The position numbers and the translations under genes were made by a program. This document shows, piece by piece, positions 26,682 to 50,075 of a stretch of DNA of 64,000 bases (position 1 is the stretch's first letter; the number at the start of each line of letters is the position of its first letter). The stretch is from Chrysoperla carnea (Eukaryota > Arthropoda > Insecta > Neuroptera > Chrysopidae): assembly GCF_905475395.1 (NCBI RefSeq), contig NC_058337.1:102728368-102792367 (forward strand). The letters run 5' to 3'. Below the pieces are notes generated by a model. It was not told the origin of the DNA. It worked only from the letters and a program-made list of their open reading frames with translations, and searched no databases.

Positions 26682-29600
26682 TTATGAAAATAAATTCTTA
26701 TCATTGTTATCATGATGTAATGTTGATGTATCGCCCGTAATCAATGTATGTTGATCATGATGTACTGTAAGTGAATCTCCATCATGTTGATCATGATCAT
26801 CGTCTGAATAATAATCATCATGATGCTCGTCATCTGATTCACTATCACTTTGTAGATTTATAACAAATGATTCTAAATGTTGATCACGATATAATTCTTT
26901 CTTAAAATCATTCTCCTGCAATTGTTCAGCATGTTGTACACTTTGCTCCCATACTTCACGACTAGTTTGATCGAGTACATGATTTACTAATTGTTCAACA
27001 TCAGCAACTTGGCATGTAATATTACGTTCAGCGACTTCACTTTTCACTTGAGCCCATACCATTTCAATTGGATTATATTGATTATGATATGGTGGTAGAC
27101 GTACAACAGTATGGCCTTTTTCTTGTGCAATAGTGTCTAGTTCGTATGATTTAGATTTGGGTTGATGAAGTTTTACAAGCGATAGTAATTCAGCTCGAGT
27201 TTGTTTGGTATCGTGTGATACACCTGTAATAAATTATTCAAAATAAATAAATTTCATATTTTTTTAAAAATATACGATTCATTAATATATGGTCCTCAAA
27301 ATTCATTAGATAAATTTAAGTATCTTAAAATATGGTCGATTTATGGTAGTTTAAAATTCTAATTTGACATTTTCCTGCGCTAGGTACCAGTGACAACATA
27401 TATCATTATATTTGAAGTCATACCTAACACAAACCTACTATTGTCATACAGCCTGTCTTTCTTTCCTTATTGGGATCTGACAAAAGGAGGCATGACACCT
27501 GGTTGTCAAAGTAGAAACTAATTAGTACAGCAAGTTACAGCTTTTAGTGTTGAGCATTGAAAAGTTTGGAGTTGATTACTTTTTGCAAGTTATAATTACA
27601 ACATTAACAAATAATTGATAAAAAAATTAAATTATTTCGTCTGGAAAGTATTTACCTCAATTTAAAAGCACGAGAAAAGTAAAGTGTTGTGTGAAAAATT
27701 GCCAAAGTCGTTTCAATACGAATACAGGTCTGAGTTTTCATAATTTGCCTCAAGCAGGCAAATATTACATGAAAATTGAAAATAATTTTGGTAATTTTGA
27801 GAAAATAGATGTCTTAAAATTATGGCAGAAAACACTGCAATTAAAAAATATATTACCTAGTCAAAAAGTGTGCTCACTTCATTTAAAAAAAAAATTATTA
27901 TGTCTTATAAAGTAAGTACAATATTTATAATGTATTATTGAACTAATATGTTTAAATCTAAAAAGATTATTGCGTTTTGACATCAAGAATACTTGAAGAG
28001 ATATTTATTTTATATCGATTTGATGAGGCTTTTCTTTTATTAGTTGTTTGTAAAGAGTATGACGTTAAACTGAGCACATTCTCCTCACTTTCGACTTGAT
28101 TTTTTCCACATTTAATCACTAGCCCTGCTTTCAATAGTATTTCACCTTACGTAAAATTACGATTACTCGGTTTTGTTTGCCCCCAACAACAAATTTCATT
28201 AATATTAATCATTCTCTTCTTGAAAAATTGCAAGGGTATGTATTGCTATGTTATTTTTAAAATTTGTCACTTTATGCCAGCCATGTTGTTTTAGCCCCGC
28301 CCATATGTCAGATCCCAATATTATTGACATCCAATTATCTGGTCCGAGAGTCTATCTATTATATTCTATCATTTATGTTAAATAAGCTATCGTTTTTTAT
28401 TTAAGGTAGTTTGTTACCCAAATCTCTTAAACTTGATCTCATATTTTTTAAATATTTATTCGAAATGCATCCATAGAAAAAAATTAAAATTTTTACCGCA
28501 TGGTTCACGAAAAATAATTAATTAGAGTTATGTTAAAATATATTGGATCTTATGAATATTCTTATTCGATAACTCCGGAAATCAAGGGTTTATGAAAAAT
28601 ATTTACATATTGAAAAAATGTTATATTGTTACTTACCATAACGCCATAACCATTCAACAATGTCAGCTTTCCGTGATCCAGCACCTGGAACTAAATCTAG
28701 CAAACGAGAATGATGTTGTGAATTATCCATAACAATAATCGATGGTTCCTGTAAGTTATGCAAGACTTTAACAAACCATGATTTAAAAACATGTGTATTC
28801 ATTTCATTAATTTGTCCCGTCTCCGGATTTTTAGTTTTTGGTTGAAATACTAATTTACACTGTGATAAAAATCCCGTTTTGGAAGATCCTACATGACATA
28901 TTACAATCGAATTTGAACCCTGTGGTTCCTGTTTTAACTTTTTTTGTTCTTTATTGTTGTTTTGAGTTAAATTTGTTAAGCTAAGCGTATAATTAGGATC
29001 TACAGAACTTTCTCCCACGTAATATATAGTACGTTGATCAGTTTTACGTAACTCGTGCATTGTACGAAGAAATTTCACTCGAGCAGCTACAATATCTGCA
29101 CGTTCCATTAAGAATTTCCGTCCATCAGGTGCTTTACGATAACTGAACCCTAAATCCTTTAATATTTTACGTAAGGCATTACATGATCCTTGAAAATTGA
29201 TTTTATTCGTGATAACTGGTAAAAGTTGTTTAACTGTTGGAAATTGTTTTTGATCGTAAAATTCATGGACTGTTCGTCTTAAAATAAAGCAGTCCATATC
29301 ATCTAAGCGATTTATTTTATCACGTTTCATTGTTGTTATTCCATTGTTATTGGTTGCAATTGTTGTATTGCTTGGAGTTGTACGAGTTTTTACGGGCGAT
29401 TCAAATACCGGTTGTTCATTTGTTTCCAAAGATATCCGACCTTCTTTTATAATCCGTTGTACAGTTCTTTTACCAATTCCACAAGCTTGGGCAGTAAGTT
29501 CTTGTGTTTTCGCAAATTTTACCGGTTGCTGACATTGTTGACGCATGTGCATTGCCTTCAAAAACATATAAACATTAAAAACAATTCCTCGTCCTTGTTT

Positions 29601-29972
29601 GTCGATAATTTCTCGAGTAGTTTTCCGTTTTGTAATTTTTTCTTTTTTAACTTTCGGTACTTTCTTGATTACTTTTTCTTTACGTTGTTTTTTTACAGCC
29701 CCAGCACCTTTATCAGCCCCTGCACTTTTTTGTTTTTTTACTTTTTGTACAATCCCTGTTTGTTGTTGAGGTTGTGACGGTTGGGGCTGAGGCTGAGGTT
29801 GTTGAGGCTGTGGTGGAGTTGCCATTAAATGTTGTTGTACAACTTGTATTGTTTGTAATTGAGTTGTTTGTTGTTGTATTTGAATGGTTTGATGTTGTTG
29901 GGTGATTTGATGGGTGCCTCCACCACCAGCTCCTCCCCCGGGCGGGGGATGGATCGCCTGCACCGTGAACAT
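26682..29972 (-). CDS. DDE-transposase-derived protein, 625 aa, two exons; first catalytic Asp apparently lost
   Basis: Exons are 28637-29972 and 26682-27223 (GT/AG, phase 1). Domains in order: a Gly/Gln/Pro-rich N-terminus (about 10-75), a Lys/Arg-rich block that looks like a nuclear signal (80-118), a helix-turn-helix including AQACGIGKRTVQRIIKEGR (about 150-185), a second winged-helix-like part (about 235-295), an IS630/Tc1-like DDE fold, and a very acidic Asp/His tail (about 575-610). Known relatives have a YLDET-type motif at the first catalytic site; here it reads YYVGESSVD, with Gly320 in place of Asp. The second Asp (VMDNSQHHS, D416) and the Glu (LPPYHNQYNPIEMVWAQ, E499) remain. No terminal repeats frame the gene and it has an intron. 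An exapted, catalytically dead, DNA-binding nuclear protein is the best inference; a decaying transposon copy is less likely because the frame is intact. The ATG is the first after an in-frame stop and lies 17 bp past the COMMD4 stop. Confidence 0.8.
27468..28320 (+). mobile_element. THAP-domain transposon relic inside the DDE gene's intron
   Basis: The outer ends are a perfect 15-bp inverted repeat: TATTGGGATCTGACA at 27468-27482 and its complement at 28306-28320. A partial match continues inward (GGAGGC versus GGCGGG). No clear target duplication was found. The 853-bp element lies on the strand opposite to the host intron and contains one THAP-domain frame. P-like and several other DNA transposon families carry THAP domains, so the family is open. 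Confidence 0.65.
27676..27915 (+). pseudogene. Isolated THAP zinc-finger domain (transposon-derived)
   Basis: An open frame reads KVKCCVKNCQSRFNTNTGLS, then FHNLP, LKLWQKTLQ and KVCSLHLKKK before a stop. This fits the C2CH THAP pattern: two Cys near the N-terminus, a conserved Trp, and a late C-x2-H. No convincing ATG is present at its start, and no transposase follows within the element. It is read as an exon remnant of the transposon at 27468-28320, not a working gene. A spliced chimera with another exon cannot be excluded. Confidence 0.6.
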
Positions 29973-29989
29973 TGTTGTAAAATCAATTG

Positions 29990-31633
29990 TTAATTCGTTT
30001 GTAAACTATTTAAATTTAATTCAATTGATTTCAGATTTTTAAGGAGGTTTATTGCCTGTGTTTTCTTTATTAAAATGCGTTCTTGTTTCTCTTGAATTGT
30101 TAACTCCAAATAGATAAAACCTGGTACAGGTGATTCCAATACTTGAACACCTTGTAGACGATTTACTAGAAAAAAATAATCATAAATTATTGTTATATGC
30201 ACTAAAAATGAAACAAATATCGCTTGTAAAACTCATATATGCTTGTTAACTAAATTTATTTTAAATATATTTACGAGTATTGTGGTATTTAATTATTCTT
30301 TGAATAACCTTACTACCTACACTTGAAGTTAGGGAATATTAATGTATTTTTTTTATATGTTTAATTCATTGTTTACACCGTTATAAAAAGTAAAAAATAT
30401 AAATACTGCTTAAAAATGCTGTATTTAAATGTAAAAAAATATTTAAAATGCATTATAATTTTGAGATATTTAAACGCAGAGATATTTGCTCTCTGTTGAT
30501 GACGTATAAGTACGTGAACTGTCAATTTTTGACAGTTTGCATAATTTACACTTTAAAAAAATGAATTTACAACACAGAATTTGTACTCGTTATTATTAAG
30601 TTTTTTAATAAAAAGCCATAGAATAGTCTAATTTAATGAAATACCATATAAAATGTTAGTAATTAATATCATACAGTATGTCAACAAATTTGACAAGCGC
30701 GTACTTTGATGTCACGTCCGTACAAAAATTTGAATTTCCGTTTTAGAAATTTTTAAATGCCCTAACTAAATTTGTACTTTTATTAATTAATTTTAAGTAA
30801 TTAAAAAGATATTAATTACTAAAATAATGGTTTAGTTGAAATGTCAAGTCATTAAAGTTGCGGAAGAAAATATTTGAACCAAATTTAAATTTCATGAATA
30901 TTCCTTATTTTCAAAATTATCTGATATTTCTCGATTTTCGAGTATAATGTATGATTTTGCTAGACTTTTTTTTGTAGAATGGTCAAATAACCGTGTTTTT
31001 TGGATACTTTAATATCTATCTAAATCGAAATGAAATTGATACTATTAAAATAATTCTTACTTCGTAATGATTGACTCCGTAACTGTTTGGTTAAAGTATC
31101 TTGACGATCCACATAAACACGACGTAACGCTTGACTATGTTCCTGTGGGAGTCCTAATTGCTGTAATTCACTGGCTAAAGCTGATTCGTCACAACCATGT
31201 CTTACAGCCGAGTTTAATATAAAATTGATACATGCAATAGTAGCTTTTAAATCTCCAGTATTATCTAAAAGTATGTTAATGTTTTACTTATTATGTTTAA
31301 ACCCAGTAATGGGAAAATATTACCTAGTTTTGAATCACTTAGTAGCTTTCGAACTTTTTCAATCTAAAAATAAAAACATTAGTTGAATAAAAAGTTTATT
31401 CTCATGCCTTTATAACTCACATTTAAACCTTTAACATCCAACCACGAATCAGCAACAACTTGTGCTAATAATTTAAGTTTAATTGAACTTAATCGTGATA
31501 GCGAATTAATTTCCGCAAGAACCCAATCGGGGCAATCAGCATCTCCACAAAAACGAAATCTCTACAAATAGTACGGACATGTTAAAAAACTATGAAATGT
31601 TAAAAAAAATATATATATATAATTACTAACCAT
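29990..31633 (-). CDS. COMMD4: COMM domain-containing protein 4, complete, 187 aa in 5 coding exons
   Basis: Exons in transcript order: 31631-31633 (only the ATG is coding), 31421-31561, 31324-31363, 31061-31264 and 29990-30165; all GT/AG with consistent phase. The protein begins [19 protein letters not shown], almost the same as the start of vertebrate COMMD4. It continues with [50 protein letters not shown] and SLRINRLQGV, ending LNLNSLQTN. The N-terminal helical domain is complete. The C-terminal COMM domain is about 10-12 residues short just after RLQGV, where family members normally carry a W-containing strand; this accounts for 187 versus about 199 residues. COMMD proteins form a hetero-decameric ring that works with CCDC22/CCDC93 in endosomal cargo recycling and cullin regulation. 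The stop is 17 bp before the next gene's ATG. Confidence 0.93.
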
Positions 31634-32493: not shown

Positions 32494-34863
32494 CTGTGTA
32501 ATAATATCGTAATAACATGTACTGATTTTGTTGTAAAAACCGTATGAACATAAATACAAAATAGCATTTCTCTCTTCTTTTCTTTGGTGGAAACTTTTAA
32601 GTTAAAGGCCATATGCTATATATTTTCGTATGTCTATCCTCCATACAATAGATACAACATTCATTAACCTTTGATTATATTCTAATCACTATGATTCTAA
32701 CATAGCCCACCAATCATCATGCCTTGCTATTTTGTGACCGAATTTCGATTGAAGCCATTGCAGTATCTCTAGGCATAGAGGAAAAAACGAGGTTTATAAA
32801 TAGTAATAAGAATTGACTGTAAATATAGCCATTTATTGTCAAATATCCATTTTAAAATGTACATTATATGCATTTGACAACAATAATAACATTTTAATAA
32901 TATTTCATATTTTAATTATTATTTTTATTTATTTATTTTTTTCATATACTACAACAAAAGAACAACTTTTAATAACAAATTATAAATAAATAAATTCAAC
33001 TAATCATATATATATTTATATATTTTACACAAATTATATAATTTTATAGCATTTTGAGAGTTGATAATATTATTTACGGTTAATATTTGTGTTACGTTTA
33101 AGAGTTTTTTTTTTAGTTTTTTTAGGTCACATTTACGAGTATTTTTACGAATCATATTTGTAGTCTAGTTTTAAATAATGATATAAGCATTCTTTTTACT
33201 TTATTAATAATTATTAGGAATTATTAATTTAAAATCATTTAAAAATTTGCTGATGTTTAGCATAATGCAATGAGCAACACAGATCTTAAAAACTATTTGT
33301 TACGATTGATTTATCGCTGAAAGGCTTATAATTGTTACATAACTATTATTTTTTTATTATCACGTAGTAGGTGAAATTAGTTAAACTAGATATACTATCC
33401 TCTGTTGTCAAAATGACCTAGCTAGAAAGAATCATTTTAAGAATTTACAGAAGGGAAATAAAAACTAGTATCATTTAATTAATGTCAAAAATTAATATTT
33501 AATTTACATTGAAAAAGTTTCGTTATTAGCTCAAATCTCTCAAATTATTTATAAAATCAAAGTTATATTTACAAATATAACCATAGATATTCGATAAAAT
33601 CATCTTTGAAATGGACTACATAACCTAATCAATAGTAATCACATAATGACAGTTGCTCAGCACCGGAATCGGATTATTATTGTTATTTTTGCAGAATGCA
33701 GTTATTAGCGTGCAGTTCTACGCTATACAATTCTATCTATGTTGGTGAGAATATATTTTAAATGGTTTTAATTTAATATTTTTAATTAATGAAAATTATG
33801 AGATCGCAGAATACCAAAATTATTGTTTATTTAAAGCTAAGTTTAAATTATTATACTTAAATTAATTTAAATACTTTGTACATACATTACAATATACAAA
33901 GTGATTATTCTATTTTTTTAAAAATAATTAGCAGTGATTGGACTACAGAACAACATCACTTTATATAAATATACCTATTTATATTATAATAAGCAAAAAT
34001 TATTAAAGGGGTTTTCTCATTATATGTATAATCACACAAATAGCGATCGATGAATTAATAATTAATAAAAATTTTCAACAAATTCGATAATTTTTTAAAT
34101 GTAATCCAATCAATATATATTTATATTAATATAATTAATGACCAAATTTAGTCCATTTTACAATATATCAATAATATAAGATGTTTTAAGCCTGATCAAG
34201 GATTTATCGAATTCCATTTTTTTATCGACGAAGTTCGAAGTTTTTTTTATAAATTAAATAATCATTAATGGTATATGTTCGTATGTTTTTACTTATTAAA
34301 TTTCTTTAATCCTTAAATGATCTTTTTATAGAACGTTCATATTGCTTTCAAACTATCGCACAAATGTACGATACAAAATTTATTGTAGAAAGGATTTAAA
34401 ATGGTCAAGATAATACTGTCATATATCTACTTATAATAAATATAATTATATACAATTTCAATATTAATTATTCTTTGGTCTAAATATTTATTAGGGCAAT
34501 CTTTGTGTAGCAACTTTAAGTTTAAGTTTAAGTTGAGTATGTGCATTTTTGAAAAATCTAATAATGCTTGAGATAAGTTTAGAATATCACTTGTCTATAT
34601 GAGAATCTAATTTAGAGTCCACAAGAAGGACGTTGATCGTTCAAAATATACTTGTTTATAAGGCAAAATTATATAAATATATTCGTTTGAATATTGGCTA
34701 AAATTGCTAAACAAGACAATATTTTGCTTTTGACCTTAGAATATATATTTTTTATAATATGTTTCGCCAGAGTCCACAGTCAGCTTAAAAAAAGTTAACG
34801 ATAACTTGCGTAAATTTGTCAAAATACGCTTTTTGCGGTAAAAATCTTTCTCTAATTATTAAT
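32494..34863. other. Intergenic stretch between the tRNA-like gene and stoned
   Basis: AT-rich with no supportable frame. The right part is likely the 3' untranslated region of the stoned transcript; no decisive polyadenylation signal was identified. Confidence 0.5.
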
Positions 34864-37800
34864 TTAATCAGAATCACTGTCTGATGATTCAGCAACGGGT
34901 GGTACAGGACTTGGAGTTTCCGCAATTGGAGCAATTGGAGGTGGCCTGACGGCCGTTACAGCGGCGTAAGCATTTGGACTATCACCTTTGGTATGTTCAA
35001 TACCAACACTAGAAAATAAAGTATAGTTTAGAGTAATTAATAGATTGAAACAATTTTTTGGAGCATCCCGGACAACTCTTCCTTTTATTAAGGACTTTCT
35101 TTCTTGTCAGTCCTGAAGATAAGGAAGAACTATTCTAGGACTACCTGTGTAGTGATGAATACTTACCGATATTCATGCCTAGCTAAATATCGTACATATT
35201 TTTCTGGAGGCTCATCACTATCAGACCCTTGTACACTAACCGAGCGTATTGTTGTGTGACTAACTTGTGTTGCAGGCATTGTAAATTCAACATATGCGTA
35301 TTCAGATAATTGTTCAGGAATTTGATCAAAACTTGTTAATGCCATACGACACACTAAATTATGGGTTGTATATGCACCTTGCCCTTCTTTGGGTAAGCGT
35401 GGACATCGCCATACTATGGAACGATGTTGATGTTCATATTTTGCTTGCCCACTAGTCACTTCAATTAGAGATTCTTGTAAAGTTTCTACAGTTCCCAAAA
35501 ATCTTTCAATGCCTTTTATTTTACCAGTCCTAGAAGAAAATGTAAAATTATTATAAGATTACAGAATTAAATTTTTCTTAATGTTGCAAATAAATTCACT
35601 TTTCAAATGCAACATAGTTAATGACATTACGTACCTTCTATGGGCTGATTTCACAGAACCATAACGAAAATGTTTCTCGACACGGAATAAATATATCCAA
35701 CATTCTGGTATTGGGAAACGAATCATAACATCTTCACATGGAACTTGTCCTAATTTACGTGAAGCAAATCCTGGCACTAAGACATCTGCGCGTAATTCTA
35801 CTTTATTACCAGTTACACACATAACAGCTTTTAATTGTAATGGTAATTCGCGATTCTTAGGTGGCCGTACCCGAAATCTCATTAATTCAATATAACAAGC
35901 GTCTGGCGGTTTAAACCTAAAATGAAAAACAGGTAATTACATGATGTAAATTTTTCAGGCAAAGCAAATTTTCAGTCGTATCTAATCGATGTTCTTATTC
36001 CTTGATCATACTAGATTTTAGTAAAAGTAGATAAGAATAGTAATCTAACCTTATGATATGTGATTTTTGATATTCCTCTTGTTGTACACAAGCATGGAAT
36101 TCATAATTTTCTATTCGAATCCACTCTTCTGTAACCACCGGTATAATATCATGGCGTCCAACTACTTCTTTTCCTTGACGTCGCATATCGTTGACACCCA
36201 ATTCAATATCTGGCATACCCGATAAGAAACCTAAAAAGAAGACTCGAACCCTTGCAATTTGTTTATCTACTCCTCCCTCGGCATTTTGTTCGACGAAAAT
36301 TTCATCAACAGCAGTAATTTGTACTTCTTCCATTTTATAGTGTAACGCCCGGTCACGATGGACGGTTAAACGAAATAGAGCTTCTTCAATCATCATCGAG
36401 AATTCTTTCATGTGTTCATAGTTTTGCGAACCAATTTTAAATAGTTGTGAGATTTGCGGAGCATGTTCCACTGGTAAACCTAGTTTTTTTAAATCACTAC
36501 CAAATTCTTTAACACCTTGATAATCACCCTGTATTGCGTAGGCAGCAAATTGACTTAATTTATTTGTTATACGTTCTGCCTTGGTTACTTGTCCCGGTCG
36601 AACTCCAGGACGTTCTTTATAAAAAATATATTGCAATTTGATTGTAAATATTTTTCCAAATTGGTCGTATTGTTGAGCACCAATCTCTGACACACTATAA
36701 CAAGCTTGTAAAGGTAATTCTTGAAATGGATCTTTATCTGTTTTATCCGCGTTGTATAACTGTAAAACAGGATTATCTCCCTGATAGACCATTTTTATAA
36801 AGATTTTCTTCCAAAATCGTTGTCCTGTGATTTTCTTTTTATTTGGTTGACGTAACTGCATTTCCCAACCCTCACCTTTATAGTGGATACGTGGAAATTC
36901 TTCTAGGGGTTGAGATGTATCTTCATCGAATAATGGTGTAGGTGGAGTTTCTTGGGAATCGGTACGTTCTAATTGTGGCAATCCTATTTAAAGAAGGTTA
37001 TAAAAAACATTAGTTTAGGTAATATATTTTAAGGAAATAGTCATATATAAATATGTATTAATAAGACGATTCAATCATATTAATGGAATGGAAATGAGCG
37101 ACACTAGCGTATCTCTTGCGGGCTACACGAACTATTTTGAAGTTAAAAAGGTAATTTTTTTTGACTGTTCCATGTATATCTTACACAGCCGAGCTGTTAT
37201 ACCATCGGCTTCTTATTTTGAAGATAGCTGGTTAAAATCTTATTTACACCACCCAAATTTTGTATTAGTGTAATCCTCAATAGTGTCGCTAGCTTACGGT
37301 TATTTCCAATAATTTTACTATAGTTATATTTTGAAATACGTAGATCAAATGTTAAAACGAGAACTGTATTGTTTAACTTAATATCACTTTTTTATGTTTT
37401 TGTAAATAATAATTTATGCCAGACCAAAAAAAATATTTACCTTGTGGTAAACCACCATCAATAATTGCTGACTGTGGTGGAATACTTGTAAAATCGCCAA
37501 ACTGTTGTTCTTGTTGATCGAATGGATTAAATCTTGGTGATGTATCTGATGAGATTGCTGATGATATTGCTGATTGTTGTGGACTTTTTGGTGGCGGTGC
37601 TAATGTTGGTACAAATCCACCACCAATGGATACATTGTCACCTGCTGTTGTTGATGATAAATCTAAATTTTTAGGTCTATAAAAAAAATTATATTTTATT
37701 ATATCCAGAAAAAAAAATTCGAGTAGTGCTTACTATATTTTCACTAAGAAATAGGATAAAATATCATCTCCAAACACATGGTGCAGTTAAAGAATATGGC

Positions 37801-40800
37801 GAGAGGTGAAATGTAGCGACGAGGTATCTTAAATTTTTCTAGGACTATATAGAACTGCTGAAACTGCTTTCTAAGACTTTTCGAAGCTATGCATATTTGA
37901 AAGAAAAGTAATCCGAAAGGTTTATTTTGGCATTACGACCTTGGCATAAGGAGACGAATGTGAAATTGGAAAAAATCCTTAAAAACGAAAATATTTTACA
38001 ATTTTCCAGATATCAAAGATTTCGTAGGCTGGAATGGGGGCTGAAAGACGCTAAGGCCGACTATGCTATTGCAAAAGTGTTGAAGTGGAAACACAACTAA
38101 GTCAGATCCCATTTTAAGAGTTTCATGTGTTTTGAAATAGGCCATTCGAAAGGCCGTAAGTCACACTGATGTTCTGAAGTATAAACATATAACTTGCTAC
38201 TTACAAAAAGGATAGATTTATACGTACTTTATAAACACTGCAAAATCTTTATCATCATCTGAATCCGAATCCAATTTCGTACTTCGTGCTGGCGTACTTT
38301 GTGGAACAGCCGGTGGTGGTGCTGACAATGATAAAAATGAATCAAACGGCTCATCATCGTCAACTCCGAAACCCATTTTATCACCACCGCTACCAGTATT
38401 TATATTTGTATCACCCCATGCATCACCCCCACCACTAACATTAGTGGTGGTGGTACTGCCACCAAACGCATCAAACGCATCAGTATTATTACTACCAAAT
38501 GCACTACTACCACCATTTGCTCCACCCGTTGATATATTATCTTTTGCAGATTCAAATTTAGCAGCAAATGCATCAAATTCTTCACTTTGTCGTTGGAATT
38601 TTTCTAAAATTGATTGTGGTTTAGATGGTATTATATTTGTATTGGCATTGCTAAATATTTGATCCTGAAGTGTTGATTGTTGATCGAGGTTTTCCGTACT
38701 ACTACCCCCACCACCAAATAAATCATTAAAACCACCCACAGTCGTTGTTTGTTGTTGTTGTTGCTCAAATATATTATTAAATACATCATTGTTACTAGTA
38801 ACTGTCTTTGTTGGTTCCTCTTTTGGTGGTGCATCAAATATATTGTCAATGAACTGTGTAGTAGTTGTTGTCGTTGTTGCTGTTGGCGCTGCTGTTGATA
38901 ACATAAAATCATCATTATCATTTACTGTTGTTATTGTTGTTGTATTTGTTAAAGTATCAACAAGCTTCGTATCATCTTGAAATGAAAATGGATTTGTATT
39001 TGAATTATCTACTTGATCTAATGTTGAAGTTGTTGTTACTGTTGTGTCTAATATATTAGCTTCGTTTATTATTTCTGTTGTTGGCGGTGTGAATATGTTA
39101 TTAGCTGTTGTTGTTTTTGTTAAATCATTTATGGGCGATATTGGTCGTGGAGGAAGTTGTTGCTGAATCACCTATAACAATGATAAAAAATTAATTACTA
39201 CTTAAATCGATAGAGTCCGTCAATTAAGGTGCGGTGAAGTAAATGGATAATAAATAAGCCATGAAAAAGAATCTCGGTCAAATGTTCACCGCAACTGCAA
39301 GACAAAGATTGGAATTTCCAATGACATAACTGGTAACTGGTAACTGGTAATGGTAACTGATTTATTAACATAGAAACCCTGGTGGAAAAAAATATTTGAA
39401 TAAAGAATAAATCTTAATATGTCTTAGAAACTTTGAAAAAGTCTTAGCAACTCTGAATAACTTTGAATTTCTAAACGTTTTTGGACTGTCTAACGCAGAG
39501 TAACGCAGAGTAACGCAGAGTAACGCAGTATAACTTATTAAGTCTGAATTAGACAGTTCAAAAACGTTGAGAAATTCAAAAACGTTGTGAGAGTTATTTA
39601 GAGTTCCTAAATCTTTTTCAGAGTTTCTAAGACTAATTCTTTCTTCAAATATTTTGTCCACTAGAGAACTTCGATAGATGCCACAAATAAGTAGAGAGAT
39701 GCTAAATCGTTACATACAGAGTGGGTCATTTTAAACTATACACCTAAATATCTCGTTTTATAGTTAGTCAATAAAAAAATAACTTAAACAAAAGTTTGAT
39801 GAAGAGACATCATGTTCTGACATTAGTTTGGACCTAGTTTTTCGGATTTCTTTAATATCCAATTTAGATTCTAAACGGTAAGAGACACTTTAAATTAGAA
39901 GTTGATCCCCATAAAAAAATTAACAATTTTAACATTTTTTCGAAAAACGTTGGCTTTCGAAGGAAATTCGACTTAAAAATATATCATTATTCGAATGCTT
40001 ACTTAGAAACTTTAACTAACGTGACATACCTTTGGCAAAGGTGGTTTTGGCGGTAATGGTCTTGTTGGCGCCGATGTCGTCGAAGTTGATGTTTGTTGTG
40101 CATTTATATTGCTATTACTATTATTATTATTAACATTATTATTATTAAAATTACTACTAATTGTTGTTTGTGGTTGTTGCTGCTGTTGTATTACTTTTGG
40201 TAATGGTGGTTTTGGTGGTGGACCAGGTCTTGGTGGCGGTGGTCGTTGCGGTTGCTGTATTGAGCTATTATTCTCTGGTTGATTTTGATTTATATCACAT
40301 ATATTTGGTTTTTCTATTGTTGTTGGTGCTGTAGTTGTTGTTGTTATTGTTGTTGGAGTTACCATAAAATCATCATTATCAAACAATAAAGATTGTTGTT
40401 GTTGATTTGTTGTTGTTGTTGTTGTTGCAGTTGATGTTACTATTGATTGTGGTATTGTTGTTGTATTAACACTAAAATCATCATTTTCCATATCAAATAA
40501 ATTGAATTGCTCTTGTTTTTGAGGCTGTGGTTGTTGTGTATTAGCACCAAAACCTCCAACATCAACTAAATCATCAATTGCCCCGCTTCCACCACCAACA
40601 GTGCTATCCACAACACTTTCTCCTTGATCTAATAAATTGATTGGTGATGGTGAATGTAAATCACGCATTGATATAGGTGATGGTGTTCTTGTACGTGGTA
40701 TACAATCTAATAAATATGTAGTTTGTGTATCCATTGTATCCGTAAATGATGATATTAAATCTTTTGTATCTTTGGATACAGGTACATTTATTGCACTGTC

Positions 40801-41409
40801 ACTTATTATTGTAGTTGCTGCTGTTGTTGATGCTATTGGAGGTGGTGCAGGAGGTCTTGGTGGTGGTGGTCTTACTTTAGGTTTATTATTTTCATTACTT
40901 GTTGATGTTATATTTTGTAAATTTAATTCATTTGGTGGTATTACTTGCTTTATCGGTGTTATTGTTGGTGTTATTGCTGCTGTATTATCTCCACTGCTCA
41001 TAAAATCCTCATCGTTATTTATTAATTGTGATTGCTGTTGCTGTGGTATTGCCGATGTAAATATATTTTGATCATCATTACCAAATATATTTGTTGTAGT
41101 GGTTGTTGATGAAGTTGTTATTGCTGTTGTAGCTTCATAATCATCCATTGCATCAAATGCAAATGGATTTTGTGCCGTTGTTGTTGGTGCTGTAACTGTT
41201 GTAGAAAAAAATGGATTATCAACCATTGTATTATCACCAAATATATTATCACCACCACCATCCCCAAAGCCACTAATATCATCCATTAAAAATGGATTTA
41301 AATTTGATTGTGATGATGATGAAGATATTGTGGTGGTACCAACAACCCCACCACCTCCGGCATCATCAGCACCCATCATTAAAAATGGATTAGCACCAGA
41401 TACTTCCAT
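34864..41409 (-). CDS. stnB: Stoned B (stonin), second cistron of stoned, 1427 aa in 7 exons
   Basis: Exons: 40030-41409, 38228-39171, 37441-37676, 36050-36983, 35635-35916, 35167-35529 and 34864-35008; all GT/AG and in phase. The N-terminal 850 residues are low-complexity (Thr, Gln, Asn, Pro) with six NPF motifs (about residues 7, 38, 65, 81, 520, 825) that bind EH-domain proteins such as intersectin and Eps15, plus Pro-rich PPRPPAPPP/PPPPRPGPP stretches. From about 880, IHYKGEGWEMQLRQPNKKK opens the stonin homology domain. It is followed by the mu homology domain (about 1010-1375; FRVRPPKNRELPLQLKAVMC, FASRKLGQVPCEDVMIRFP, QAKYEHQHRSIVWRCPRLP). The tail is acidic. Stonins link synaptotagmin to clathrin/AP-2 coats in synaptic-vesicle retrieval. 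The ATG lies 2 nt past the stnA stop, in a good context (A at -3, G at +4). The fly protein is about 1260 aa; the excess is in the repetitive part. Confidence 0.95.
39379..39664. mobile_element. Palindromic element with tandem decamer at its centre, in stnB intron 1
   Basis: The left end CTGGTGGAAAAAAATATTTG and right end CAAATATTTTGTCCACTAG are imperfect inverted repeats extending roughly 110 bp inwards. The central part contains tandem TAACGCAGAG units at 39491-39530. A solo arm of the same family is in Appl intron 1 (8611-8720). An open frame of 98 codons across it has no family resemblance and is a by-product of the repeat. Confidence 0.7.
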
Positions 41410-41414
41410 GTTTA
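41407..41414 (-). promoter_or_regulatory. stnA stop / stnB start junction (TAA-AC-ATG)
   Basis: On the minus strand the stnA stop TAA (41412-41414) is followed by AC and then the stnB ATG (41407-41409) with no intron between them. Both frames must lie on one mature exon. The spacing is compatible with termination-coupled reinitiation. The bases around the stnB start (AAACATGG) fit the insect start consensus well. Confidence 0.9.
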
Positions 41415-43727
41415 TTGTATTAGTTCAGATTCAATTAATTTTAATTCAACAGCACCCGGTACTAAATTTGTTGTTACCGATGTTGTATCAAATGGATCAA
41501 AATCTTCGTCTTGTTCTTGTTCTTGTTGCTGTTGTTCAGCACTTGTTGTAGCTGCTGGAGTTAATGGTTGTAAATTATGTATGAAATGTTGATCATCTGC
41601 ATCATCTAATGATGTTAGTAAATCATTTAATTTCTCTTGTTTACTGATAGTTGTCGCTGCTGTTGTGGATGATTCTTGTATGGTTAATAACTCATTTTCC
41701 AATAATTTTAATTCAGCTTTACCAGGTAATATATTAAATGAATTTGTTGTATCAAAGGGATCAACGTAAGTTAATTGATCATCAATATTATCATTTGGAT
41801 TCACTGGTGTTAATACTTTTGTATTTATTATATCATCATTATCATGGTCAACAACTAATAAATCAGTTATTTCTTCTTTTTCTTGCTGAACTTGTTCTTG
41901 TTGCTGTTGTAATAACTGTTGCTTTTGTTGTTGCTCTAATAATTGATTTAATTTTGAACTTGGTGCATTATTTTTAGCTTCTTCAATCGTTGCTAATTCA
42001 TTTTCAATTAATTTCAACTCAGCTTTACCTGGTACAACCGTAGCAATAAATGTTGTATCAAATGGATCTTCTAAATAATCTTCCAATTGGTTATCCGCCG
42101 ATAATGCAGGTGTTGGTTTTAGCGCAGGTGTTTGTAATGTTTCTATTGATTGTAAAACTGATAAATCATTATCATCAGTTTTCTCAAATAAATCATCTGG
42201 TGTAATTATTTGTTTTTGTTGGGGTGGTTCGTCTTGTCGTGGATTAAAATCATCGTCATCAAAATCGTCACTTGTTAATGCTGATTGTTTTGGTTGTGGT
42301 TTATCACCCAATAATTCAGCTTCAATAAATTTTAGTTCAACTTTTCCAGGTATATTAATTTTCTCAATTGAGCTTGTATCGAATGGATCTATATCATCAT
42401 TCTCATTATCAATTTCATTGAATGTTGTAATTGGTGTAATTGTATCATGTAATTGTGATAAATCTGTTGTGCTACCACCAAGTAAATCTTTTTGCAATAC
42501 GTTTAATTGATTTGTTGTTGGTTTTGGCTCATTGTCGAATGCATTCCATTGCTGTGTATCGATTTCAACCTTTGGTTCTATTTGAATCTGTTTTGCATCT
42601 AATACAACTGGAACTGTTGTTTTTAATGATTCCGCAGCTAGACTTGTAAATTCATCATCTAATTCATCAGTTTGGGTTGTAGCTAATACATCAAATTCAT
42701 TTAAATCAAGAACGTGTTTTGATTCTTGTTGTTGCTGTTGTTGAAGTTCTTTTTGATTACTTGTTGTTGTGGATGGTAATGTTATTGTTGGCTCAGGAAT
42801 GACAATATCATCGATATCGTCATCTAATAAACTTTTCGGTGCTGATGTTGTTGTAGCAACAGTGACGTTATTACCATTCGAATCAGTTTGAAGCTGTTCT
42901 TGCGGTTCGTCAACAATTAATAAATCATCAATTTGATGTTTACGACGTATTGATGGGGATCTTGTTGTTGTTAAACACGATGGATCAACACGACCAGTTA
43001 ATACTTCAACTGCAGATCCAATTGAAACTAATTTTTTGCCTTTTTTCGATACTTCTGGACCACGTATTATTTTATCAGCAGCGGATGTATCAAATGGATC
43101 TATATCATCTGTACCGTCGTTCTGATCGTCATCATCAGGTATATAAGCTAGTTTTATTTCTCCACTTGCAACAACATCTACATATGACGTATCAAATAAG
43201 TTATCATCCTCATCGGTTTCGTATTCACTACCTGATTCTTCTAATAAAACTACGTTTGCTACAGCTGCTTCAGATTGCGGCTGTTGTTGTGGTTGTTTAA
43301 AATCAGCAAGAGTGTAAGTTTGATCTTTATTTGTAGAATGCCCTTCGGGAGCTGCTGGTTTTGGAGGTGGTGCAGGTTTCGGTGGAGGAGTTCGTTTAAA
43401 GAATGATGTTTGTTTGATTCGATCTAAGTCGTCTTTAGTTTTATGTAAGATACTATCAATACCAGTTGTTAGTTCATTAAATTTCTTCCATTCGTCTTGA
43501 TCTTGTGCTTTTGTTGTTTCAGTAGTGCTGTGCTGTTGGTGATCTTCACTCTCTTCGTAACCCGCTCCACTTCCACTACCTTCAAATTGTTCAACTACTG
43601 CAGCAGTAGATCGTTGTTGGTGTTCACGCTTGTATTGTTCTAACTCCTCTTGTGTAAATAATTCTTCGTCTTTTTTATGTTTTTTTGATTTTTTCTTCTT
43701 CTTTAAACCTTTACCTATTTTCAGCAT
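41412..43727 (-). CDS. stnA: Stoned A, first cistron of stoned, 771 aa, single coding exon
   Basis: The frame begins MLKIGKGLKKKKKSKKHKK, a basic start, followed by FTQEELEQYKREHQ, a segment WKKFNELTTGIDSILHKTKDD and PPPKPAPPPKPA. The body is acidic and Gln-rich and carries a repeated unit DPFDTT...PGKAELKLIE.EL. DPF motifs (AP-2 appendage ligands) are at about residues 210, 447, 554, 656 and 744, with a degenerate LFDT copy near 178. The last repeat ends at the stop codon. In the fly, stnA acts with stnB in synaptic-vesicle membrane retrieval. The protein has no Met after residue 1. The upstream splice acceptor at about 43765 makes this the second transcript exon, with a 5' noncoding exon not located. 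Length is near that of the fly protein (850 aa, from memory). Confidence 0.95.
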   Translation of the reverse strand: MLKIGKGLKKKKKSKKHKKDEELFTQEELEQYKREHQQRSTAAVVEQFEGSGSGAGYEESEDHQQHSTTETTKAQDQDEWKKFNELTTGIDSILHKTKDDLDRIKQTSFFKRTPPPKPAPPPKPAAPEGHSTNKDQTYTLADFKQPQQQPQSEAAVANVVLLEESGSEYETDEDDNLFDTSYVDVVASGEIKLAYIPDDDDQNDGTDDIDPFDTSAADKIIRGPEVSKKGKKLVSIGSAVEVLTGRVDPSCLTTTRSPSIRRKHQIDDLLIVDEPQEQLQTDSNGNNVTVATTTSAPKSLLDDDIDDIVIPEPTITLPSTTTSNQKELQQQQQQESKHVLDLNEFDVLATTQTDELDDEFTSLAAESLKTTVPVVLDAKQIQIEPKVEIDTQQWNAFDNEPKPTTNQLNVLQKDLLGGSTTDLSQLHDTITPITTFNEIDNENDDIDPFDTSSIEKINIPGKVELKFIEAELLGDKPQPKQSALTSDDFDDDDFNPRQDEPPQQKQIITPDDLFEKTDDNDLSVLQSIETLQTPALKPTPALSADNQLEDYLEDPFDTTFIATVVPGKAELKLIENELATIEEAKNNAPSSKLNQLLEQQQKQQLLQQQQEQVQQEKEEITDLLVVDHDNDDIINTKVLTPVNPNDNIDDQLTYVDPFDTTNSFNILPGKAELKLLENELLTIQESSTTAATTISKQEKLNDLLTSLDDADDQHFIHNLQPLTPAATTSAEQQQQEQEQDEDFDPFDTTSVTTNLVPGAVELKLIESELIQ

Positions 43728-43751
43728 TATCTTCTAACCACTACGTGTGTA

Positions 43752-43764
43752 CTACATTGAGGCT
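43752..43764 (-). promoter_or_regulatory. 5' leader of stnA with splice acceptor and ATG-TAG start-stop element
   Basis: A pyrimidine-rich TTTTTCTTTTGCAG acceptor ends at 43765; the exon then begins AGCCTCAATGTAGTACAC. The first ATG in this exon (43755-43757) is directly followed by TAG (43752-43754). It forms a minimal upstream frame about 25 nt before the stnA ATG. Such start-stop elements can hold ribosomes and tune reinitiation. Whether this exon is used in the mature transcript is inferred from the acceptor only. Confidence 0.5.
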
Positions 43765-46700
43765 CTGCAAAAGAAAAATATTAAATTTCAGTTTGTCCCA
43801 AGTTCTAAATAAGATATTTTACATTATTCTATTTCAATTAAAATGTAGTTGGTATGCTTTAGTTAATAATACAATCAGTTATTTTTTGAAGAGGCATATA
43901 TTATCCCTCATGAATTTTGTAACTATTTTATTAACTTGGTGAAAAATTGATTTAAAAAACAAAGCAATTATCTTGGCGTCATAATGACGTTGTTTATTTC
44001 ATTACTATTGCCAAGTTTGTTTGGCTAAGGTCAAAGTAAATATCTTATAAAAATAAAAATAAATTTTACAAAAAAACGAGTTAAAATAAACAATTGACTG
44101 AGCCAATTGTTGAAATACCCTGTATAGACAGTGTTGAATATCAGATATTGAATTTTTTTTTAAATACATTTGATCAATTTATGAGTGTTCATGTAGAATA
44201 AAATGCCAGTCTTCCGGTTGCCATTTCCGGGTTTCGAAAACTTTTGTAGTTTACTCTTAATATTATCCGATAGGTTTTGTATGAAATTAGAATCAATAGA
44301 TTCACTATTTGAAGCTATCTACAAATATTCACCCTTCTTTCTTTTATAGTCTTTGAGAAGATGAAACTTAAGCTTTGCCCTAATTTGAACCCTCAAGGGC
44401 AGCCAAAGATATTTACAAAAAAAGGGATCCAAACAAAACATTTCTGTATTTTTAAATAAAAAACATTTTTACATTTTATTTTTAAACTTTTATTCTATCT
44501 ATCTCTTACGATTTACAAGATGGGTTCTACGGATCAAAACCCGATGGACCTATTTTGCTCATTTACGAACTCAAACTCACGTTTTATGCCCTGTGCATAC
44601 TATACAAATTACAGCCAATATCTCTTTTCAACAATAGCCCAATATCGTTTTTGAGTTATCTTGCTAACGAACAGACGGACAAATCTATCCAAAAATTTTC
44701 TGACTATCATCTTTTATAGCCTAGAGCCAAATGTAGTATTTAACAGCCATTTCAGGAAGGCTGTAAATTTGAAGGACTGATATCAAAGTCATAGCAAATT
44801 AATTTTTTCTTCACATTTTCTAATCGGTGGTACCGATTTCAGGGGACCTGAAAATATTTAATGCACGGCAAGCTTAAAATTGATGAATATTCATTGAAGC
44901 CGATTTTCAGATATGATATTTGAATAAAAATGTAAAAATCATTTTGTTCAATATTCGAACCTTCGAGATTGCAATTTTCAATGTGTCGGGCAACGAACAC
45001 TGTTTTGTTGAGTGTCTTTCCATTTTTATTCAATTATCTTTTTATTTGAATATCGTCCTCAATTTTAAGCTTACTTAAACTTTTGTGACTGTCTCAAATT
45101 TATATAATTGATTTGATTTTTCTATAGCTCATGCTTACGGCGTAATAATGTATATAATAATAAGGTGTAGAGTACTTGAAAGACAATCTAAAAATTACAA
45201 TCTTACATTGTGTCAGGGGTTATTGTTTTCTATTTTTTATTGAATTATATCTTGATAAGCATAACAAAAGGCGAAAATTTTCTTTGTTATTCCCGACAAA
45301 GCAGATATATTTGAAGAAAATTTATCAGATGTTTGAAGATTACGGACTTTTTTCAAAACTATGTCAGGCTCTAATCATAAAAGAAAGTTTCGGATAGAAT
45401 AAAAGATTTGAATGTTTACATTGGAAATTTTGAAATGATAGCACTTGGCTTCGCTTACTCAATAAAATTCAAATAATATCACTAAAAGTAAGTTTTGGTT
45501 TTTTAATTAGCTTTTTTTTTTTTTTTTTTTTTAATTTTGCAAACACTTTTTTATAAGTATGATAAAATCGAGTCAACTTTATTGTTATCAATAATTTTGT
45601 TTGTTATTACGACTGGCGGTCCAATCAATATTTGCTTAAATTTATTTACGCCTACGACAAATTTAATCAGTCAACTATTCAAAGGTTTCAATTATGAATA
45701 TAATAAAAATATTTTTTTTATACACTTGATAATAAAATTCAAAATAATGTTACTAAAATCGATCTTAAAAAAATTTAAAAAAGAAAATATCTTACAGAAA
45801 ATACGATGAATATGTAGATACATATATATCTATGTACTACAAAGTATTGATTTTTATATTATTGGAGTATACTATATAATATATACATAATTATTTTATT
45901 AAAAAAAAGAAAAATAAAAATAAAAATAAAGATATATGAAATAACAAAATAATATACTAATTAACTTAAAAAAAAAAGAAAATAAAAATAATATCTTACT
46001 ATTTAGTGCCCCATTGTAATAATTTATACCGTACACATTTTTAATCTTAAAAAACAATTTTAATTCGTTACACTTTTTTTTACACAATAAATTTAATATA
46101 TATTTAATTTAATTGAATTAAATAAATATATAGATAAATTTTTTAACACTATTTCTGGTATAGAAGATGTTATACTATGGTGGGTAGAGTAGGTACCTAT
46201 TATGTAAGTAGGTATCGATTTTATATAACGCATACACAAAACAACCCTACTATGATGATGACTTGGATGATTTTCGGTACCCTGATATCTTCCGAGTTTT
46301 TCATATCATTTTGTGTGATTATCAAGACATACATTAATCAGACTACATCGGTTTATGTTCGTATTGTATCGAATTTTACCGAATATGGAACTATTTAGAG
46401 TAAATGTGAAATAAAATGACTTTTCTTGTGTAAATTATTGAGTTTTCTTATTATAAATGTAGCACTTATTTTTTTTATTTACATTATATTTTTCTAAAAA
46501 TTAAGGTATTACTTTTAGAAGTCAAATACTTGTTTGATTCTTTAATTTTTACTGTATGAATTAATTGTAGTATTAGATTAAAAAAGACATACTTCTGATT
46601 TATTAGTCAACCTAATAAGTGCGTACATTACGTTTGGTTTGATCAGGATATTTATTATGATATAACATAAAAATTTCATTGTACTTACTTCAAATTATAT

Positions 46701-48218
46701 CTGTTATATAATTTAAAGAAAACTTTCATAACTCAATTATTTCAAATAATACAACATAAAATTCTAACAAACAGTACAAATGGACTGTTATAAATATATT
46801 TTTGCATTTCTCAAAATCCATTCCATTCAATCGATTCAAAGTTTTAGTCTCCTAGGTAACCTAAATGTAGGTTTTAAACATACTTCCAAAAAGGTCAAAC
46901 TTAAGTGTTATTAAGTGAGGATTAACTATGGTCACTTTTCAGACTACATTTTCAATATAAGTCAAAGTAGTCTTTTATTTGCTTTTTGAAATAAATTAAA
47001 TTGAGGTCGCTGAATAACCTTTACAAAAATTTGAGCTTATGCCTGGTATCCGTTAGACATTTTCTGATTGATCTATCTTAGTTTGAGGGCTCAATTTAGT
47101 TCGAATGTGCCGTATATTTCACATTTAGATGAAAATATTTTCATACCTATTAAAGTAATATAAAAAAAGTGAGACACCTGTACATATCTTTTAGTTGGAA
47201 TGGGAAAATCATATCCCGTTTAACTAGACATGATTCATTTCATTGTGCGCATAGACACTTCTATTATTGATTTCCGTCAAATCAAATATTTGTTTGTATT
47301 TTTTATAAAATATGATTCCTAAATTTTCATTCTCATATGATTTCCGATAAGATTGACGTTTCCTTAAATTATTTTAAAGTGAATAATTAATAAGAGTTCG
47401 ATAATCTATGAAAAATTAAAATCCAAATTTAAAAATCAAAATAAATATAATATTTTATTCAGTTTTTCTCTAAAACATACATGTCTGATTAATTCGTTTC
47501 GTTTTAGGTTAGTTCAAGTTATTGATTTATGGAAATGTATTTTGTAGTTCCCATATTTGTAACGCTTGGAAATTGTATTTGAAAAGAAAAACTTTTTTCT
47601 TACCTCTATGAATCAATTTTTGTTTTCACGATGGCAATCTGAATTTTATAATTGGAGTATATTTAATTTGACCATTACTTCTGAAATCTTAAATAGTAGA
47701 TTTTCGTTTAACTTACATTCTTCGGTTTTGTTATCTCAATGATTATAAGCTACAATTTTGCATTACATACCAATTTTGCATTACTTACTCAGATATCAAA
47801 AATGGTATGAATCGAGATAAGCATAATAACTTAAGCAAATAAGCATATAACTAACTTCCATTTAAGTTTGCGGCATATAGAAATTTTTGATTTTTCGGGC
47901 TTTTTATCTTGGATGGAAATGCAATTTAAAATGTTTCATATATGTTAGCGTGGCAAAAAATGTCTCTAAATTTTTTATTACTATAAATAATATGTTTTCA
48001 ATAAAGGCTTTCAATCAGATCATTTCGAATTTTTTCCAAAGCGTTTTTATTTATTTACCTGAGTAATTATCTAACTATTCAAGAAACTTTGGGATGGATA
48101 TTATTCGTTTTCAAAAAGTAGACTCAGAGATGAAATTTCTTCCTCCTCTCAGAATCTAGGCAATCATGGCGCTTATTCTTTACAAACGTGAATTAGTGGA
48201 GGGCCGCTAGATTTTTAC
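43765..48218. other. Gene-free stretch upstream of stoned
   Basis: The stoned promoter and 5' noncoding exon should lie here or beyond, but neither could be located. Contents are AT-rich sequence, a long poly-T tract near 45511-45533, and several short unsupported open frames (for example 45176-45397 and 45537-45809) without recognisable motifs. Confidence 0.5.
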
Positions 48219-49500
48219 CTCGGAATCGAAGGATTGTCAATGAATCTTTATAAAAACTGTTCGACTGCATTGTATAAAGCTTACTTAAAGAAGTTAAAAA
48301 CAAAAATTTGTGCGATCTGGTCCAGGGGGTAAGGGACACCCCTTCGTGGGGGTGGAAAAGTTTATGTTAAAAATGACAACGGGAAGCGAGAAAAGGATGA
48401 ATTCTAAACAAAAAAAGTCATTTAAGTATATTTCGAAAAGTCAATACTTTCCGAGTTATTGGCGATTGAATTTCGGAGTATTTAACGTCAAATAACTGTA
48501 AAATTTGAAGTTTTTTTCAGAAAGTAGATGGTACACTTTTTAAAGTACTAAAAAAACCATGAAAATGGAAAAAGTTTCAAGTCATTTGCATGAAAATTGA
48601 AGAAGTTATAAAGAAAACAAAATTTTTCGTACCTTTCTGTTAATGTTATATTCAGCACAAAAACTGATGAATTTACCACGGGAACTACTGCAACATGTTC
48701 AAAAAGTTACTAGCAGTTACGGATATATATTTTTTTTAATATTGCAATTTAAATGCGAAAATTTTTATCGAAATTTCAAAAAAAGAAATGTCTTTGTCGT
48801 TTAATAGCTCGATAAATAATAAAGTTAAAGAAAATCTCCCAAACTTTTTTCGGTAAATTAATTTTTTTTCGAGTTATTTAACGATAAAAGTATTTTTTTG
48901 TATTTTTAGAAAAAATAATTTGCATTTAAATTGCAATATTTAAAAAAATATATATCCGAAACTGCTAGAACTTTTTGAGCATGTTGCCAGTACTTAAATA
49001 AAGAAAATTGAAAAGCGGCAAGCATTAATTTTAGTTCCCGTGGTAAATTCATCAGTTTTTGTGCTGAATATAACTTAAAAAGAAAGGTACGAAAAATTTT
49101 GTTTTCTTTATAACTTCTTCAATTTTCATGCAAATGACTTGAAACTTTTTCCATTTTCATGGTTTTTTAGTACTTTAAAAAGTGTACCATCTACTTTCTG
49201 AAAAAAACTTCAAATTTTACAGTTATTTGACGTTAAATACTCCGAAATTCAATCGCCAATAACTCGGAAAGTATTGACTTTTCGAAATATACTTAAATGA
49301 CTTTTTTTGTTTAGAATTCATCCTTTTCTCGCTTCCCGTTGTCATTTTTAACATAAACTTTTCCACCCCCACGAAGGGGTGCCCCTTACCCCCTGGACCA
49401 GATCGCACAAATTTTTGTTTTTAACTTCTTTAAGTAAGCTTTATACAATGCAGTCGAACAGTTTTTATAAAGATTCATTGACTATCCCTGGATTCCGAGC
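48219..49500. mobile_element. 1.28-kb foldback element (near-perfect palindrome)
   Basis: Sequence from about 48219 (CTCGGAATC) is repeated in reverse complement up to about 49500 (GATTCCGAG). The arms are nearly identical over 500-600 bp each, close enough that a 61-codon frame at 48310-48495 recurs exactly at 49223-49408 on the other strand. Divergence increases only towards the centre near 48860. No transposase is encoded. It resembles a foldback or long-TIR non-autonomous DNA element. A target duplication was not evident. Confidence 0.85.
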
Positions 49501-49894
49501 TTTTAACATATTTATACCTTACGGATCTCTGTTAAATACCTATACATACAGATATAACAGATATCTTAGAAATTTTGCACCCGCCTTTTAGTTCATATGT
49601 TACGGTTTATAACAATCATGGCATTTGTCAGCTGTATTTATTAGCAGATTTCCTTTACTCAAACTCCAGGCGAATGTTGATATAGTCTAATAATAATCTC
49701 TCTCACCCTGGATTTCTGCTTGAATCTGCTTGCTCGAGTTGCTTTATTTAAATAGTGTGTGGTTTTTTTGTTTTTCTCATGTGGACTTCATCTGAAATTC
49801 CGCTGAAATGTTGCGAGAGCTTTAGACACATTTTTGCTTCCTTCTTGACTTTTTTTCTTTTATTTCTACAATACTTTTTCTTGTTTTACGATTG

Positions 49895-50075
49895 CCTACT
49901 TAGGCTAGGCGATATAACATATGAAATCGATTTTTTTTCGGGTAAGACCGATCGAGATGCAGTTTTTTGCATTCGATTCAGGTGTAATCAGTTATATATA
50001 TTTAACGAAATCGGCCAAATTATGTTACTCGGGGGTTTTTGTTGCTGATCACGAATATGATGTATAAAATACTGG
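49895..50075 (+). repeat. Probable dispersed repeat fragment
   Basis: The segment around GATATAACATATGAAATCG and TGTTACTCGGGGGTTTTTG, with GCTGATCACGAATATGATG, resembles a dispersed repeat I recall from insect genomes. A 97-codon open frame over it (49755-50048) is hydrophobic and unlike any family, so it is not called as a gene. No second copy was found inside this window. Confidence 0.35.

Follow-up and report, generated by a model that had tools for sequence, protein, structure and literature searches.

How can ribosomes reach the second frame of an mRNA when the first frame is 771 codons long and strewn with AUGs? The question is raised by a 64,000-nt stretch of Chrysoperla carnea contig NC_058337.1 (positions 102,728,368 to 102,792,367; hereafter the window, in whose own numbering all unlabelled coordinates are given). 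It contains two tandem minus-strand frames, stnA and stnB, which by their anatomy are the insect stoned dicistron. A sequence-only reading of the window had proposed this identity and the dicistronic layout, and the anatomy of both frames supports them. It had also stated that the stnA stop and the stnB ATG are separated by just AC, and that the 771-residue stnA has no Met other than its initiator. Both statements hold, positions included (Table 1): none of the 770 internal codons is ATG. Altogether stnA carries 45 ATGs, namely the start, 42 in frame +1, and two in frame +2. We suggest, with a probability of roughly 0.6, that stnB is reached by leaky scanning combined with reinitiation hops over the short out-of-frame open reading frames (ORFs).

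The absence of in-frame AUGs is already known in Drosophila, and stoned of C. carnea adds another case. The 2005 paper by Wall, Phillips & Kelly (J Biol Chem 280:27670) reportedly ascribes translation of the second cistron in Drosophila stoned and Snapin to absent in-frame AUGs in the first one. This rule was drawn from Drosophila, and a completely Met-free stnA of 771 codons in another insect supports it by evolution. Moreover, the asymmetry between the frames (no in-frame ATG, 44 out-of-frame ones, all opening short ORFs) opens to direct test the question of how subunits get across a long, AUG-rich cistron. A Met-free first frame can also help gene finders to recognise dicistronic loci, but it is not a sign to rely on everywhere, as Snapin of the same genome does not show it.

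In-frame and out-of-frame ATGs of stnA

To judge the absence of Met, we compared stnA with 42 open frames of the same genome, that is, 41 non-stnA frames of at least 200 codons and stnB exon 1 without its initiator. The sources were 20 pieces of 10 kb spaced evenly along one contig, four of which gave frames of at least 200 codons, 14 regions at some of 101 homeobox hits and 12 regions at some of 52 HLH hits, these regions being picked for long open frames. The window and the surroundings of Snapin contributed further frames. Frames were taken from stop to stop and are uncurated. Regions L001, L002, L003, and L005 were excluded from the 41-frame set, and L025 was kept, including a frame resembling a retrotransposon reverse transcriptase by eye (1046-2263) and its other frames, which apparently form one tandem family. 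A few bases of stnB exon 1 lie within the stnA open stretch, which kept this exon out of the 41-frame set; it was entered by hand in the 42-frame statistics.

The controls have 350 Met in 15,365 codons, with individual rates from 0.63 to 5.73 %, and none of the 42 is Met-free; their longest Met-free run is 304 codons. The probability of no Met among 770 codons is 2e-8 under the binomial model and 7e-5 under a beta-binomial model allowing for the spread between proteins; even at the rate of the poorest control (0.63 %) it is 0.008. Given 16 disorder-like controls, one would expect 15.9 Met in stnA (P 6e-7), in agreement with the roughly 15 that the sequence-only reading had estimated. Thus, the absence of Met from stnA exceeds chance.

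The same reading called out-of-frame ATGs common, and this part stands with 44 counted; what it left unremarked is that the ORFs opened by them are short and close before stnB. All 44 span 1 to 19 codons and end inside stnA, the last one 151 nt before the stnB ATG, and none overlaps stnB. The longest of these ORFs has 19 codons, compared to a mean of 38 in 2000 synonymous shuffles (P 0.002) and to 47 in codon-order shuffles (P 0.0025). When this short-maximum test was applied to 42 frames, stnA was the most extreme (P 0.003), followed by frames with P of 0.020, 0.043, and 0.062. As it is one among several statistics examined, the short maximum is only suggestive. The out-of-frame permissiveness of stnA is not superior to that of other sequences, since among 58 control segments, each of 200 codons, 42 were equal or better. 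Therefore, the visible constraint is on in-frame ATGs, that is, the sequence is constrained in the frame where, according to the flux model described below, it matters.

Possible ways across stnA

The proposed route starts with a single mRNA carrying both frames, a layout favoured by their 2-nt distance and by the lack of a strong acceptor ahead of stnB. A share of 43S complexes would leak past the stnA AUG (context ATA ATG C). All AUGs that the leaked subunits would then encounter are out of frame, and the ORFs that these open have 19 codons at the most. As 40S subunits can remain on the mRNA after short ORFs and reinitiate, they would hop forward until they finally meet the stnB AUG in its near-optimal context. 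An in-frame AUG, on the other hand, would have the subunit make a truncated stnA, a long one except when the AUG is close to the end, and for this reason in-frame AUGs would be selected against while out-of-frame ones are tolerated. Reinitiation after short upstream ORFs (uORFs), helped by DENR-MCT-1, has been described in Drosophila (PMC5972666). The 44 intervening ORFs of stnA have the form that such reinitiation calls for, each being short and ending ahead of the main start.

To see what such a route could deliver, we modelled the flux of subunits, counted from just past the stnA AUG, with assumed initiation probabilities set by the -3/+4 context. With pure leaky scanning, fractions of 1.5e-8, 5e-4, and 0.028 reach stnB at three leakiness settings; at 3 % or less, and with 44 out-of-frame ATGs on the way, this bears out the earlier judgement that simple scanning past stnA looks unlikely. 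Long-range leaky scanning with an AUG-free upstream region would leave few or no AUGs of whatever frame ahead of the second start, unlike the 44 of stnA. When reinitiation after short ORFs is added, the fraction rises to 0.04-0.42. At one model setting, 16 in-frame ATGs put at random Ile or Leu codons would leave 6 % of the original arrival, and a single one would leave 86 % (both are medians of 200). Crossing stnA by hops would hence be feasible, the model speaking for feasibility rather than for fact.

A bolder version, which we put forward only tentatively, considers the 2.3 kb of stnA a chain of short ORFs that permit reinitiation, crossed in about 11 to 22 hops. The output of stnB would then hinge on DENR-MCT-1 and reinitiation and not on simple leakiness. 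Such a chain would explain why just the in-frame AUGs are forbidden. The start-stop uORF ahead of stnA (Table 1) could perhaps first release subunits past the stnA AUG, or may be there by chance. In reinitiation, start-stop uORFs are known to be paired with DENR-MCT-1, this having been described for strong contexts (PMC5972666); since the context here is weak, this uORF stays a lead only.

Several observations weigh against leaky scanning with hops. The stnA AUG has A at -3, and thus its context is not clearly weak. If every AUG were used, 22 hops would be required without a refractory distance and 11 with one of 100 nt. When all frames are considered together, nine of the 58 control segments equal or beat stnA, so it is moderately permissive. 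The lack of overlap between out-of-frame ORFs and stnB is no sign of selection, being common to 2000 of 2000 synonymous and 62 % of codon-order shuffles. The number of out-of-frame ATGs (44 versus 50.7 expected from 2000 synonymous shuffles, P 0.006) was rejected as a signal, as three of 41 control frames reach P of 0.007 or less. With one Cys and two Trp in 771 residues, stnA is also very poor in these amino acids, and hence a part of the Met lack may arise at the protein level. The in-frame rule is not universal, since Snapin of this genome keeps two in-frame ATGs (see below). Finally, both the hops and the shared mRNA are predictions from the DNA sequence.

Among the alternatives, termination-coupled reinitiation comes next, although we consider it unlikely. 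Here a ribosome that has finished stnA would remain at the stop and restart 2 nt further on, perhaps aided by a hairpin at the junction. This was the route that the sequence-only reading had found attractive, and the gaps are indeed tight, 2 nt at stoned and 6 nt at Snapin-HemK2, and the start context of stnB is strong. The junction stem is among the three longest in 8.7 kb, has the most GC pairs of those three, and encloses both the stop and the start; the folding z of the junction is -2.4 to -2.6. However, three of 88 scanned segments of the same stretch, one of them overlapping the junction, fold with lower z. The hairpin was thus discarded as proof of coupling and is kept as a lead only. 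The closeness of stop and start is reminiscent of termination-reinitiation at the TURBS (termination upstream ribosome-binding site) of caliciviruses and influenza B, but no UGGGA core typical of these systems was found in stnA, and we know of no TURBS example featuring a Met-free upstream frame. Coupling neither requires nor explains the absence of in-frame Met, because ribosomes that began at the stnA start codon would read internal Met codons like any others. In addition, a review rates reinitiation following long ORFs as presumably very rare (PMC5972666). The attractiveness of this route is therefore not supported.

We give slightly less credit to selection on the protein itself, under which a disordered stnA avoids Met, as it does Cys and Trp, or its N-truncated forms are harmful, the delivery of stnB being incidental. 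The scarcity of Cys and Trp noted above agrees with this. Yet frames without Cys still carry Met (nine in 343 codons of a frame in L033 and two in 317 codons at 38221-39171), and stnB exon 1, with three Cys and no Trp, has 11 Met in 465 codons. The version based on harmful truncation also needs leaky scanning.

Least probable of the three is a separate source of stnB, be it an internal promoter, an alternative splice removing stnA, or an internal ribosome entry site (IRES). Dicistronic loci of the fly often have extra monocistronic transcripts, and exclusively dicistronic origin of both products was apparent at only 45 of 159 loci (PMC4528330). By a rough score, however, no strong acceptor was found in the 300 nt before stnB (the best has 9 pyrimidines of 15, compared to 11 of 15 at the presumed stnA acceptor), and Rfam gave no match at the gathering threshold over 34000-50000. 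Moreover, a separate source, including IRES entry, leaves the absence of in-frame Met unexplained. Fusion of stnA and stnB by stop readthrough or frameshift was rejected, as the stnB frame is open for just 15 nt upstream of its ATG and no slippery heptamer was spotted by eye.

Snapin-HemK2 and other dicistronic systems

Drosophila melanogaster stoned (stnA-stnB) was reportedly described by Andrews in 1996. Its spacer is presumably longer than 2 nt, and the gap observed here may be a compact form. Like the fly locus, that of C. carnea has tandem frames, an stnA with a Lys-rich region and DPF repeats, an stnB with NPF motifs and a mu-homology domain, and a first cistron devoid of in-frame AUGs. 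Such AUGs are said to have an attenuating effect on the second ORF at the stoned and snapin loci of Drosophila (PMC3372440). Both fly upstream ORFs are reported to be deficient in internal AUGs, with Kozak-like regions off the consensus, and mutational analysis of the fly dicistrons pointed to leaky scanning (PMC11892635). In the open-licence papers examined, we found no account of why in-frame AUGs alone matter while out-of-frame ones stay; the 2005 paper may give one.

This genome seems to contain the other fly dicistron of the 2005 paper, too. By a profile search, we found Snapin on the same contig as stoned, at about 33.78 Mb (L004 7990-8138 and L002 1503-2424); the spliced frame has two exons and 142 codons, and matches the profile over positions 1-89 of 89. 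A second, weaker Snapin/Pallidin match (L003), below the Pfam cut-off, was left out. The last Snapin exon ends with TAA, and 6 nt later, in the same exon, starts a HemK2-type methyltransferase, named from NCBIfam TIGR00537, which we take to be the same as the partner of Snapin in the fly. Two of the 141 internal Snapin codons are in-frame ATGs, both with T (U) at -3, which is no depletion (P(<=2) 0.37). Hence the two loci share tight tandem frames, and the strict in-frame rule is seen at stoned only. In this respect Snapin differs from the fly upstream ORF, described as deficient in internal AUGs (PMC11892635). The L004 region also has a zinc-finger-like frame (L004 5390-7420, minus strand; 677 codons, five Met), and its out-of-frame ATGs are fewer than in synonymous shuffles (P 0.005).

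Bicistronic transcripts of green algae (PMC11892635) resemble stoned in the AUG depletion of ORF 1 and in that leaky scanning is favoured; restoring an in-frame AUG lowers algal ORF 2. Unlike stoned, with its 44 out-of-frame ATGs over 2.3 kb, the relatively small algal ORF 1s are depleted of AUG 3-mers overall.

Anatomy and neighbourhood of stoned

The features of the locus are listed in Table 1.

Table 1. Features of the stoned locus, in window coordinates
Feature	Position	Strand	Remarks
stnA coding frame, 771 aa, one open exon	41412..43727	minus	single Met is the initiator; Lys-rich N terminus; DPF repeats at C terminus
stnA/stnB junction	41407..41414	minus	TAA 41414-41412, AC spacer, stnB ATG 41409-41407, context AAACATGG
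First stnB open stretch (465 aa when read up to the following stop)	40012..41409	minus	four NPF motifs; runs rich in proline
Open stretch oriented like stnB, 317 codons	38218..39171	minus	2 Met; probably a further stnB exon
Three open stretches with adaptor mu-homology domain	35163..36987 (35995-36987, 35559-35936, 35163-35558)	minus	Pfam PF00928
Presumed 3' splice site CAG ahead of stnA exon	43765..43767	minus	TTTTTCTTTTGCAG; top pyrimidine count among sites in scanned 43900-41300
Start-stop uORF ATGTAG	43752..43757	minus	30 nt upstream of stnA ATG; T at -3 (weak context)
Candidate 15-bp hairpin	41390..41465	minus	arms 41465-41451 and 41404-41390, GU pairs counted; 46-nt loop contains stnA stop and stnB start
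Four C-terminal stnA repeats	41439..42389	minus	DPFDT then PG..ELK; DPF at residues 447, 554, 656, 744

The name of stnA rests on anatomy, as Pfam and NCBIfam gave no match to it at the applied thresholds. Lys accounts for 11 of the first 20 residues, and a fifth DPF (residue 210) lies outside the PG..ELK repeat set. The NPF motifs of stnB are at residues 7, 38, 65, and 81. A donor-like GTATGT suggests that its first exon ends near 40029, and the open stretch at 38218..39171 is probably a further exon. A mu-homology domain is an expected part of the stnB C terminus; the three stretches carrying it match PF00928 with E values of 2.9e-13, 5.5e-9, and 2.9e-13 (in the order of the table), and the first of them also matches AP-2 mu in a PDB search. 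A Lys-rich N terminus and DPF repeats have been described for fly StnA, and NPF motifs and a mu-homology domain for StnB (PMC3373503). The anatomy of both frames agrees with this description, including the proline-rich runs of stnB. STNA has been reported from insects only (PMC3393740). We found no relatives of the stnB mu-homology stretch in viral, bacterial, or archaeal records, stnA not having been used as a query. Within stnA, a 201-nt segment (42127-42327, minus strand) has the lowest folding z of the 88 scanned (-4.6).

Downstream of stoned, by about 27 kb, there is an amyloid precursor (APP)-like gene with open stretches at 5332-7972 on the minus strand; the APP E2 domain (PF12925) falls in 5332-5934, and the remainder was recognised by eye. 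Between the two lies an exon of a COMM domain protein (PF21672; 31020-31283, minus strand). Two further minus-strand frames, 28629-30005 (458 aa) and 26682-27233 (183 aa), look transposase-like by eye, the first with only a sub-threshold Pfam match. Finally, a 65-aa open stretch occurs twice, at 48298-48495 on the plus strand and at 49223-49420 on the minus strand, forming an inverted repeat with copies about 0.7 kb apart that is perhaps a mobile element.

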